From: Actinomycetota bacterium
GTDB lineage: Bacteria > Actinomycetota > Acidimicrobiia > Acidimicrobiales > AC-35
Direction of reading: 5' to 3'
Length of the DNA stretch: 40,340 nt
NCBI GenBank assembly: GCA_005884125.1
Contig: VAXP01000117.1
Coordinates: forward strand, 19,046-59,385
Numbering within the stretch: the stretch's first letter is position 1; each line of letters starts with the position of its first letter. The notes under the pieces were generated by a model. That model saw nothing but the letters and a program-made list of their open reading frames with translations. It was not told where the DNA came from and searched no databases. The position numbers were made by a program, and so were the translations under genes. Positions 11,010-14,290 of this stretch are shown piece after piece.

Positions 11010-11453
11010 TCAGCGGGTGACGGCGGCCTCGACGTCCCGGGCCTCGACCCACTCGCCGCAATCGGGACACGCGAGCTCGGGCAGCATCACGTGCCCGCAG
11101 GCCTTGTGACGCAGCTCCACTGGGGGCCCCGGTGGACCCGACATCCAGCGGTCGCCCCAGCGCAGGAGAGAGACGACGACCGGATAGAGGTCGCGCCCCT
11201 TCTCGGTGAGCCTGTACTCGAAACGGTCGGGCCGCTGCGAGTAGAGGCGGCGCTCGAGCACGCCGTTGTCGACCAGGATCCTGAGGCGGTCGGCGAGCAC
11301 GGGACGAGGGGCGCCCGTGCGGGCCTGGAAGTCCTCGAACCGCCTGATCCGCATGAAGGCCTCGCGCAGCACCAGCATCGTCCAGCGGTCGCCGACGACG
11401 GACAGGCTCCGGGCCACCGAACAGTCCTGCTGGTCGATCTCGCTCCACCGCAT
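11010..11453 (-). CDS. HxlR-family transcriptional regulator
   Basis: A 147-residue winged-helix protein. The N-terminus has the conserved early cysteine and helix DCSVARSLSVVGDRWTMLVL, then FEDFQARTGAPRPVLADRL as the recognition region and a wing ending in YRLTEKGRDLYPV. The C-terminal 35 residues contain HKACGHVMLPELACPDCGE, a possible small zinc knuckle that basic HxlR proteins lack. A TAAAGT box lies 6 bases before the ATG, implying a leaderless mRNA. It is divergent from the GNAT gene across a shared inverted repeat and is followed on its own strand by three envelope genes. Confidence 0.9.
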   Translation of the reverse strand: MRWSEIDQQDCSVARSLSVVGDRWTMLVLREAFMRIRRFEDFQARTGAPRPVLADRLRILVDNGVLERRLYSQRPDRFEYRLTEKGRDLYPVVVSLLRWGDRWMSGPPGPPVELRHKACGHVMLPELACPDCGEWVEARDVEAAVTR

Positions 11454-11459
11454 GGTGTG

Positions 11460-11500
11460 ACTTTAGTCCGCTTGAATTCAGAAATCGAACGGACTAAGTT
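11460..11500. promoter_or_regulatory. Shared operator and two divergent leaderless promoters (HxlR / GNAT)
   Basis: Arms TTAGTCCG (11463-11470) and CGGACTAA (11490-11497) form a perfect 8-base inverted repeat. On the plus strand TTGAAT (11472-11477), a 17-base spacer and TAAGTT (11495-11500) make a good promoter whose transcript would start at or next to the ATG at 11507. On the minus strand TAAAGT (11465-11460) lies 6 bases before the HxlR ATG at 11453. Both -10 boxes overlap an operator arm, so one HxlR dimer could silence both genes. Confidence 0.65.
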
Positions 11501-11506
11501 CAAATC

Positions 11507-12004
11507 ATGAACGGACTGGCGCCCTTGCCCGAGATCACGGTCCGGCCCCAGGAGACCGACGATGGCGAGCGCCTGCGCCGCCTCTTCGACCGCCTCTCGC
11601 CCGAGACCGTCTACCGGCGCTTCTTCACCCTGTTTCCCGCGCCCCCGCCCAGCGTCCTCCGGCACCTGGGGGCGGTCGACCACTGCGACCACGAGGGCCT
11701 GGTCGCCCTGGAAGGGGACGAGATCGTCGCCGTGGCCCGATGGGACCGGCCGGGCGAGGGCGGCCCCCGGGCGGCCGAGCTGTCGATCCTGGTCGAGGAC
11801 GCCTGGCAGCACCGGGGGCTGGGCCGGGCCCTCATGGGCCTGCTCGTGGCCGAGGCCGCCCGGCGCCGGGTCACGTCGCTGAGCGCCGTCATCCTCACCG
11901 AGAACAGGCCCGCCCGCCGGCTGGCCACCAGCCTGGGCCCTCCGACCAGCGTGGAGATGGACGGCCCCGTGACCCATCTCACCTTCGCTCTCGCATCCAG
12001 CTGA
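11507..12004 (+). CDS. GNAT-family N-acetyltransferase (Pat/AcuA-like)
   Basis: A 165-residue acetyltransferase. The start VRPQETDDGERLRRLFDRLS and then PETVYRRFF resemble the catalytic part of bacterial protein acetyltransferases such as mycobacterial Pat (Rv0998). The acetyl-CoA pyrophosphate loop is QHRGLGRAL, after the strand ELSILVEDAW. A candidate catalytic acid lies in the DHEGLVALEGDE region. Pat enzymes acetylate a lysine on acyl-CoA synthetases; in mycobacteria a cyclic-nucleotide domain is fused in front and controls them. Here the next gene, 30 bases downstream, encodes only such a domain. Transcription appears leaderless from the HxlR-type operator region. Confidence 0.82.
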   Translation: MNGLAPLPEITVRPQETDDGERLRRLFDRLSPETVYRRFFTLFPAPPPSVLRHLGAVDHCDHEGLVALEGDEIVAVARWDRPGEGGPRAAELSILVEDAWQHRGLGRALMGLLVAEAARRRVTSLSAVILTENRPARRLATSLGPPTSVEMDGPVTHLTFALASS

Positions 12005-12034
12005 ACCCAGAGGTAACCGACTCGAGGCCCCAAC

Positions 12035-12538
12035 ATGAAAGACGGTGCCGGCATGGCCCTTTCCAGACCAGCCAAGACCCTCGATCCCAAAGTCACCTTC
12101 CTGCGCGCACTCACCGGCTTCTCGGGACTTCGCGACCGCGACCTCGTCTCGCTGGCGTCGCTGTTCGACGAGGTCCGCCTGGAGGCGGGCGAGCGTCTCA
12201 TCCGGGAGGGCGAGCCCGGCCACGAGCTGTTTCTCCTGGCCGACGGGCTGGCCCTGGTGAGCCTGCGCGAGGAGGCGCTGGCGACGGTCGGGGCGGGGGA
12301 GCTCGTGGGGGAGATGTCCCTGCTTGACCCCGCCCCCTCCTCGGCCACCGTCACCGCACTGACCCCGGTGAGGGCCCTGGTCGCCGGGGCCCGCAGCTTC
12401 GGCGCCCTGCTCGGTCGTCCTGAGGTGATGCGCCTCCTCGCCCTCACCCTGACCCGCCGCCTCCGGGCCTCCCAGGGCTCGCCCGCGCCGTGGCAGCAAG
12501 GCAGGAGCGGGAGCGGGATGTCGCCCGCGCCGCGGTAG
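12035..12538 (+). CDS. Stand-alone cyclic-nucleotide-binding-domain protein
   Basis: A 167-residue protein with one cNMP-binding (Crp-type) domain and no DNA-binding domain. The beta barrel reads VRLEAGERLIREGEPGHELF, and the phosphate-binding cassette is GELVGEMSLLDPAPSSATV. The glutamate of the cassette is present, but the arginine that binds the cyclic phosphate (PRSATV-type in most family members) is serine here, so cAMP binding is doubtful. It lies 30 bases after the GNAT gene and is probably its regulatory partner, equivalent to the N-terminal domain of mycobacterial Pat. ATG 12053 is an alternative start. A short palindrome (12540-12552) follows before the convergent TetR gene. Confidence 0.82.
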   Translation: MKDGAGMALSRPAKTLDPKVTFLRALTGFSGLRDRDLVSLASLFDEVRLEAGERLIREGEPGHELFLLADGLALVSLREEALATVGAGELVGEMSLLDPAPSSATVTALTPVRALVAGARSFGALLGRPEVMRLLALTLTRRLRASQGSPAPWQQGRSGSGMSPAPR

Positions 12539-12559: not shown

Positions 12560-13222
12560 TCAGGACATGCGCCGCTTGCCGCCCGTGGCCCTGCCCGGGG
12601 GCGGGCTGAGCGCAGCCTCGGCCACGGCGGCCACGTCGGGGCCGAGGAGCGTCGCCGGGTCGGTGCCGATCTGGACCAGGGTCATCAGCAGCGACAGGAC
12701 GATGGTCACCAGGCCGTTGGCGATCTGCTGGGCGTCGATGTCGGCCCTGACCTTCCCGGCGAGCTGGTGGGCCCGGATGCGCTCGCCGCTGGCCTTGCGC
12801 AGCTGCTCGAGGGCGGGGATGGAGAGGAGCCTGACGGTGAAGTCGGGTTCGAGCCCGGCCAGGACCCGCCGGGCCAGGGGATGGCGACCGACGGCGTCGA
12901 GCAGGGTGAAGATGAGGGTCTGGCGCCAGTGGTCGAGGTCGTCGTGCTCGACGACGCTGGACAGGCCTTCCTGGATGACGGCGGCGGCGTCCTCGTCCAC
13001 GGCCGCGACGAAAAGGGCTTCCTTGTTGGCGAAGTAGGCGTAGGCGGCGGTGCCGCTGAGCCGGGCGTCTCTCGCGATGTCGGCCACCGATGTGCTCCGG
13101 TAGCCGTCCCGGCCGAAGCGGGCGATGGCGGCCCGGAGCACGGCCTCCCTGGTGCGCCCGCCCTTGGTGCCGGGGGCGCCGACTCCGGGGGTGCCGACGC
13201 CGGAGGCGCCCACCTCTGACAC
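12560..13222 (-). CDS. TetR-family transcriptional regulator
   Basis: A 220-residue repressor. After about 20 Gly/Pro-rich residues comes the HTH region: REAVLRAAIARFGRDGYRST, then SVADIARDARLSGTAAYAYF, ending NKEALF. The C-terminal ligand domain is helical, with QLRKASGERIRAHQLAGKVR. The GTG start at 13222 lies 7 bases from a TATCCT box (13235-13230), itself 18 bases from TTGACA on the minus strand, so the message is probably leaderless. It is divergent from the AurF-like oxygenase gene and most likely controls it and itself. Confidence 0.9.
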   Translation of the reverse strand: MSEVGASGVGTPGVGAPGTKGGRTREAVLRAAIARFGRDGYRSTSVADIARDARLSGTAAYAYFANKEALFVAAVDEDAAAVIQEGLSSVVEHDDLDHWRQTLIFTLLDAVGRHPLARRVLAGLEPDFTVRLLSIPALEQLRKASGERIRAHQLAGKVRADIDAQQIANGLVTIVLSLLMTLVQIGTDPATLLGPDVAAVAEAALSPPPGRATGGKRRMS

Positions 13223-13229
13223 GGACGTC

Positions 13230-13279
13230 AGGATATTTGTTTCTGAGGGATTGTGTCAAACACTCAATTCCTCTAGGGT
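13230..13279. promoter_or_regulatory. Divergent promoters and TetR operator
   Basis: A 19-base imperfect palindrome, outer arms ATTG and CAAT, lies at 13250-13268. The minus-strand -35 TTGACA (13259-13254) is inside it, with -10 TATCCT at 13235-13230 (18-base spacer) for the TetR gene. On the plus strand TTGTGT (13251-13256), 17 bases and TAGGGT (13274-13279) form a promoter for the oxygenase gene, which then has a leader with a GGAGGAG ribosome site. A repressor on the palindrome would cover both -35 boxes. Confidence 0.6.
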
Positions 13280-13318
13280 GGCGGCGCGGTAAGGCCGTCC
13301 TCGTGGGGAGGAGATGCG

Positions 13319-14290
13319 ATGACCGCCACCCAGTCCCCGACCGAGTGGCTCGAACCCCAAGCCGAGCACACGGAGCACACGGCGAGGGTCGAGAGGCTCA
13401 ACGCCGCCTCGCTGCGCCGGATCGTCGAGCCCGACGACGAGGTCACCGGCACGCTGACCAAGGACCAGGTGGTGCCGGACGAGCTGCTGTCCGTCGCCGG
13501 CCTCGGCCTCGACCTGAGCCCCGAGCAGCGCGCCACCCTGTCCCGGGAGGAGCTGGCCTCCATAGTGCGCTTCGGGATCCTGTTCGAGGCCGTGCTCATG
13601 TCCGGCTTCGCCTATCAGCTCGCCCTCAGTCCCGACGTGACCGATCCCCGCTTTACCTACGCCCTGCACGAGATGGGTGAGGAGACCCGCCACTCCCGCC
13701 TGTTCGTCCGCCTCGTCGACGAACTGGCCCCGATGCAGCGCAACCCGCTCAACAGCCGCCTCGCCGCCCGCGTGCGCTCCCGCATGCTCCCGTTGCTGCT
13801 GCGGCGCCCGGCCACGCTCGACGCCTTCGTGCTCGTGGGCGAGGAGATCCCCGACCTGTTCCAGAAACTCATGGCCGAGCATGCCGACACCGACTCCTAC
13901 GTCCGCGACATCAGCCGCTACCACCGCACGGAGGAGGCTCGGCATCTGGCCTTCGCCCGCACCACCGTGGGCGAGCACTACCGGGCCACCTCCTGGACCG
14001 ATCGCTTCGCTGTCCGCTGGATCGTGCCCGCGGGCATCGTGGGCATGTTCGACGCCATCGTCCAGCCCTTCGTCTACGCGACCGTCGGGCTCCCTCCCCT
14101 GCGCACCTGGCTCCGCGTCCGCCGCCTACGGGAACGGGTGGCCATGCGTGAGCAGTGCGCCCGAGCCGTGCTCAACGCCCTGATCGACGGGCGCGTGCTG
14201 AAGCGCGGGCGGGTGCCCGGCCTGTGGCGCCGTGTGGCGGCCGTCGACCGCCATGGGCGGCCCGCGGCGCGGCCCAGCTCTGGTTCCTAG
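13319..14290 (+). CDS. AurF-like diiron oxygenase
   Basis: A 323-residue ferritin-like helical protein. Metal-ligand candidates are E90 in ILFEAVL, the E122-x2-H125 pair in HEMGEETRHSRLF, a glutamate in VGEEIPDLF, and the ExxH in RYHRTEEARHLAF. This spacing fits the p-aminobenzoate N-oxygenase (AurF) family, which oxidises aromatic amines or related substrates at a diiron site. No biosynthetic cluster surrounds it, so the substrate is unknown. ATG 13319 is chosen because a GGAGGAG box lies just upstream. Its stop and that of the convergent Clp-N gene share the four bases CTAG at 14287-14290. Confidence 0.8.
   Translation: MTATQSPTEWLEPQAEHTEHTARVERLNAASLRRIVEPDDEVTGTLTKDQVVPDELLSVAGLGLDLSPEQRATLSREELASIVRFGILFEAVLMSGFAYQLALSPDVTDPRFTYALHEMGEETRHSRLFVRLVDELAPMQRNPLNSRLAARVRSRMLPLLLRRPATLDAFVLVGEEIPDLFQKLMAEHADTDSYVRDISRYHRTEEARHLAFARTTVGEHYRATSWTDRFAVRWIVPAGIVGMFDAIVQPFVYATVGLPPLRTWLRVRRLRERVAMREQCARAVLNALIDGRVLKRGRVPGLWRRVAAVDRHGRPAARPSSGS

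Follow-up and report, generated by a model that had tools for sequence, protein, structure and literature searches.

Does the pair of genes at positions 11507-12538 of the window (the whole stretch of 40,340 nucleotides that was analyzed) represent a split version of the cAMP-controlled acetyltransferase Pat? The initial annotation had read the pair in this way, as a dedicated two-protein acetylation switch in which the GNAT and CNB modules of Pat are encoded separately. The features that bear on this question are as follows:

11010-11453, minus strand: HxlR-family transcription regulator (P0003; PF01638, 9.5e-24)
11454-11506, no strand assigned: intergenic region between the HxlR and GNAT genes, with a conserved core at about 11472-11501, TTGAATTCAGAAATCGAACGGACTAAGTTC
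11507-12004, plus strand: stand-alone, Pat-like GNAT acetyltransferase (P0001)
12035-12538, plus strand: stand-alone CNB-fold protein lacking the cyclic-phosphate arginine (P0002)
12296-12352, plus strand: degenerate phosphate-binding cassette (PBC) of P0002, GELVGEMSLLDPAPSSATV

The arrangement of the pair was as first described. P0001 (165 amino acids) and P0002 (167 amino acids) are encoded by separate adjacent genes on the plus strand, in one frame and with the GNAT gene first, and both the coordinates and the 30-base gap, which contains an in-frame TGA and an in-frame TAA, match exactly; the sensor gene is thus separate from the GNAT gene and lies in the same putative operon. Adjacency by itself is weak evidence, because with 43 PF00583 and 7 PF00027 profile matches in the window's genome about 0.1 adjacent same-strand GNAT/CNB pairs are estimated to occur by chance. 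The conserved HxlR context of the locus is stronger evidence. Another CNB/GNAT adjacency was observed in the same genome (L161, contig C91, 3283-5567), where a generic GNAT gene overlaps by 4 bp the gene for a CNB-PDZ protein of 597 amino acids, whose PBC likewise lacks the Arg (GFGPQPALV). The CNB-PDZ protein is kept in relatives and the GNAT beside it is not, and this overlap was dropped as support for a functional pair on account of the absence of the pairing in relatives.

P0001 resembles the catalytic domain of Pat, as had been proposed. It matched Acetyltransf_1 of Pfam (8e-12), and GNAT was the only type of Pfam match over its 165 residues, as in the single-domain type IV enzymes. The NCBIfam model NF058543 ("acetyltransferase Pat") aligned through its GNAT part with P0001 (75 bits) and through its CNB part with P0002 (56 bits); as separate proteins both scored under the whole-protein cut-off of 460 bits, and so did the fused CNB-GNAT relatives in the order (236-312 bits). 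The top PDB match of P0001 was MtPat (4ava, 6.5e-17), and 4nxy, an acyl-CoA-synthetase-type entry which we take to be Streptomyces PatA, was also among the best. The catalytic Glu235 of MtPat aligned with E91 of P0001 (11777-11779) and is conserved. P0001 is most likely a stand-alone (type IV) Pat-like protein acetyltransferase with acyl-CoA enzymes as predicted targets, and lysine acetylation is the activity expected from its similarity to Pat domains. It resembles the AcuA and RpKatA type in its size of about 165 amino acids, in containing only a GNAT domain and in its Pat-like sequence, but P0001, known here from its sequence, has a divergent HxlR regulator and is not part of an acu operon.

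The GNAT phylogeny, which had been suggested as a check on the Pat reading, set P0001 apart from Pat in the best trees. P0001 fell within a clade of 23 rows, mostly stand-alone GNATs (95/93), and MtPat and the CNB-fused GNATs formed a separate clade in two trees (100/99 and 100/100). The four HxlR-linked GNATs, those of the window and of genomes G025, G219 and G412, formed one clade (100/99). In the best tree, GNAT domains of actinobacterial ACT-GNATs (AAPatA/MaKat), in whose members the ACT domains were confirmed, adjoined the group of P0001 (93/88), but P0001 itself has no ACT domain. In AU tests, joining the whole HxlR-linked GNAT group to Pat gave p values of 0.12 and 0.34 and was not rejected, whereas joining the window GNAT alone was rejected (p 0.021).

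P0002 is a CNB-domain protein by both profile and fold. It matched cNMP_binding (PF00027) with 6.8e-17, and its AlphaFold model (pLDDT 88) has an ordinary CNB fold that matched the CNB domains of CRP, PKG and Pat about equally. When P0002 was compared with about 40 CNB relatives in the order, S102 (12338-12340) was found to occupy the cyclic-phosphate Arg position of the PBC, in agreement with the earlier claim that a serine replaces the cAMP-binding arginine. Most of these relatives retain the Arg, and it is kept in 6/6 of the fused relatives aligned (L121-L126). The same position is occupied by Ser in the window and by His in the two other HxlR-linked CNBs, and these three proteins form one clade (96/87). 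P0002 should not bind cAMP in the canonical way, judging from this residue, because the Arg neutralizes the cyclic phosphate in PKA (PMC10959531). Regulatory subunits of kinetoplastid PKA, like P0002, have a polar residue in place of the PBC Arg, and such CNBs can bind nucleosides (PMC10959531), but they possess a ribose-binding Glu where the alignment places S95 of P0002, and a kinetoplastid-type nucleoside pocket was rejected for P0002 on account of this missing Glu. With six class III cyclase matches, cAMP or cGMP signaling is plausible in the window's genome; these cyclases give no link to P0002.

Compared with MtPat and MsPat (Rv0998/MSMEG_5458, type III cAMP-GNATs), the window proteins represent the same CNB and GNAT superfamilies and keep the catalytic Glu. 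However, in MtPat and MsPat the CNB is fused N-terminally to the GNAT domain and the PBC has Arg, whereas the window has two ORFs with stop codons between them, the GNAT first and Ser in the PBC. P0002, like P0001, was outside the Pat group in the best trees, and its placement with the Pat CNBs was not formally rejected (AU p 0.32). Descent of the pair from a broken fused Pat was discarded on the disagreement of the best trees, though the AU tests were not decisive, and "split Pat" does not appear to be the best reading of the gene pair. Searches of relatives for the two arrangements gave different answers: a CNB gene beside the GNAT was found in 0/31 neighborhoods of GNAT relatives, and fused Rv0998-like CNB-GNAT proteins were found in seven of the 198 genomes of the order (L121-L127; threshold E<=1e-40). 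cAMP-sensing acetyltransferases were held in 2017 to be restricted to mycobacteria (PMC6434083), and the fused proteins of this order extend beyond the mycobacteria named there.

The context that the GNAT gene shares with its relatives is the regulator gene. The gene for P0003 is divergent from the GNAT gene and is the member of the locus that is conserved, with orthologs in five other genomes that are 71-82% identical. In a search of 395 genomes of the class, strong matches to P0003 were present in only three, namely the window's genome, G412 and G445. Cys11, Cys119, Cys129 and Cys132 are invariant across the six orthologs, and the N-terminal cysteine was present in 6/6; in some HxlR proteins similar cysteines serve as redox sensors. 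The region between the divergent genes is also conserved, with 44/52 bases identical to the window in G219 and 35/50 in G025, scores reached by 0/2000 shuffles in either comparison. An alignment of the six genomes was invariant in 32 columns, among them GTTC, AAC and CTA/GTTC blocks; some of these columns lie in the HxlR start codons, and the sequence is conserved in front of differing first genes. A near-perfect dyad in the window, GACTTTAGTCC/GGACTAAGTTC, was marginal against shuffles (21/500) and is not common to all six genomes. An HxlR domain and a conserved intergenic sequence, the two marks of an HxlR regulator with a divergent target, were both found here. The region 11454-11506 is a probable operator and bidirectional promoter to which HxlR would bind, the operator and the operon being predicted from conservation and spacing.

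What faces this regulator differs among the six genomes. The divergent operon consists of GNAT and CNB genes in the window, a GNAT gene alone in three genomes (G025, G219 and G412), a CNB gene alone in one and thioesterase and CNB genes in one. The GNAT genes most closely related to that of the window (61%, 57% and about 50% identity) are likewise divergent from the HxlR ortholog; what comes after them is an SDR gene in convergent orientation, a MOSC gene or, from our reading of the sequence, a convergent aminotransferase-like ORF, and not a CNB gene. In G445, the HxlR gene is faced by a CNB gene and no GNAT gene; this CNB is 42% identical to P0002, with Arg changed to His in its PBC (...VPHWSSVV). 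In G005 (L176, 6948-8362), the HxlR ortholog (74%) is divergent from a 4HBT hotdog thioesterase gene that overlaps by 4 bp the gene for an Arg-less CNB (L063, PBC ...LPHDTTV). L063 had appeared as the sister of P0002 in an earlier tree, before its HxlR neighbor was known. At the thresholds used, a P0001-like stand-alone GNAT was not found in G005 or G445, and among the G025 CNBs examined no Arg-less CNB of the HxlR-linked clade was found. The CNB clade therefore adjoins the HxlR ortholog in three genomes, which belong to different families, and the GNAT does so in four; in a simple post-hoc model the chance that at least 3/6 HxlR loci have a nearby CNB is roughly 3e-6. The comparison covers six loci, and the completeness of at least two genomes besides the window's (G025 and G219) is just 80-81%. 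Nevertheless, the Arg-less CNB appears to recur as a partner at the HxlR locus rather than to be a dedicated GNAT subunit; its occurrence with the GNAT, with a thioesterase and alone shows that serving the GNAT cannot be its sole role. A literature search on CNB-linked thioesterases and on acetyltransferases with CNB domains in Acidimicrobiia yielded nothing relevant. In G219, the gene after HxlR codes for an AMP-forming acyl-CoA synthetase with PLTASGK at its C-terminus. PLTASGK fits PX4GK, an acetylation target motif.

We conclude that the locus is probably one version of a conserved HxlR divergon in which a stand-alone acetyltransferase and a non-canonical CNB occur in a variable operon. 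HxlR and the shared intergenic operator would control a small divergent operon of changing content, and a metabolite or a redox/electrophile signal may cause HxlR to be released from the operator or rearranged on it. The acetyltransferase then produced would acetylate lysine residues in metabolic enzymes; AMP-forming acyl-CoA synthetases are the most plausible targets, as suggested by one neighborhood, that of G219. The co-expressed CNB may act ligand-free or with a ligand other than cAMP, and its target may be an acyl-CoA enzyme or some other partner.

The best surviving alternative to the divergon, although a doubtful one, is that the CNB serves the HxlR circuit itself or some other enzyme as a scaffold or regulatory partner, binds either a non-cyclic ligand or no ligand, and shares with the GNAT nothing more than its regulation. 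That the CNB accompanies HxlR irrespective of the GNAT agrees with this, as does the nucleoside binding of kinetoplastid PKA CNBs with polar Arg replacements (PMC10959531), but S95 in place of the Glu leaves a ligand switch of the kinetoplastid type unsupported as far as the alignment can tell. The two-protein Pat of the initial annotation, in which the CNB would bind the GNAT in trans, gate it and sense a ligand other than cAMP, is unlikely, gating in trans as such being possible. The genes are 30 bp apart on one strand, both modules score against NF058543, the CNB does gate the GNAT in type III Pats (PMC8556138) and a common origin of the GNAT group and Pat was not rejected at p 0.12 and 0.34. 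Against it, three orthologous loci have the GNAT but no CNB and two have the CNB but no neighboring GNAT, the examined CNBs of G025 include none of the Arg-less clade, G005 and G445 gave no P0001-like GNAT at the thresholds used, and the best trees put both parts outside the Pat groups; with no CNB in 31 GNAT neighborhoods and a CNB without GNAT in two genomes, a dedicated switch is not supported.

The nearest precedent for a sensor in trans also suggests caution about assuming that the CNB gates the GNAT. The acuA/acuB genes of B. subtilis, like those of the window, encode a GNAT and a small nucleotide-sensor-like protein in one operon, and regulation of the acetyltransferase in trans was suggested for AcuA/AcuB (PMC8556138) and later not found (PMC13121692). 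AcuB, the sensor of the acuABC operon, is a CBS/ACT protein, whereas P0002 is a CNB. The ligands of AcuB are adenine nucleotides and its target is the deacetylase AcuC, which it inhibits; it has no effect on AcuA, and this too argues against the two-protein Pat (PMC13121692). Still less probable is a broader form of switch, in which the degenerate CNB would be an exchangeable trans subunit, with a new ligand, for whichever acyl-CoA enzyme its operon encodes, the acetyltransferase in the window and the hotdog thioesterase in G005, as a two-protein acylation switch. Also improbable is that GNAT and CNB are functionally unrelated chance neighbors, as the numbers of GNAT and CNB matches in the genome (43 and 7) and the unconserved L161 overlap might suggest; simple chance adjacency, favored after the 0/31 result, was dropped when HxlR-facing Arg-less CNBs were seen in G445 and G005, since CNBs of this clade adjoin the same HxlR ortholog in three genomes of different families and the GNAT does in four.

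As a version of the HxlR divergon, the locus reveals a small subgroup of CNBs that lack the Arg and are linked with a single regulator, in which the departure of a CNB from cyclic nucleotides can be tested. A putative stand-alone lineage under HxlR control would be added to the allosteric and multidomain protein acetyltransferases already described. A further lesson is that adjacent modules should not be taken for a split fusion unless the orthologous loci are checked.

Additional GNAT fusions and neighboring genes were observed. The window's genome contains a candidate multidomain Pat in a 936-codon open frame (L117, contig C104, 2273-5080), in which an N-terminal GNAT is fused to CoA-binding, Succ_CoA_lig and ATP-grasp domains that form an acyl-CoA-synthetase-like part. 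In an Anaerolineales genome, an acetyl-CoA hydrolase/transferase is fused with a GNAT (L008, 4570-6480). Downstream of the pair, at 12560-14290 of the window, lie a gene for an AurF-like diiron N-oxygenase and, divergent from it, a TetR regulator gene.
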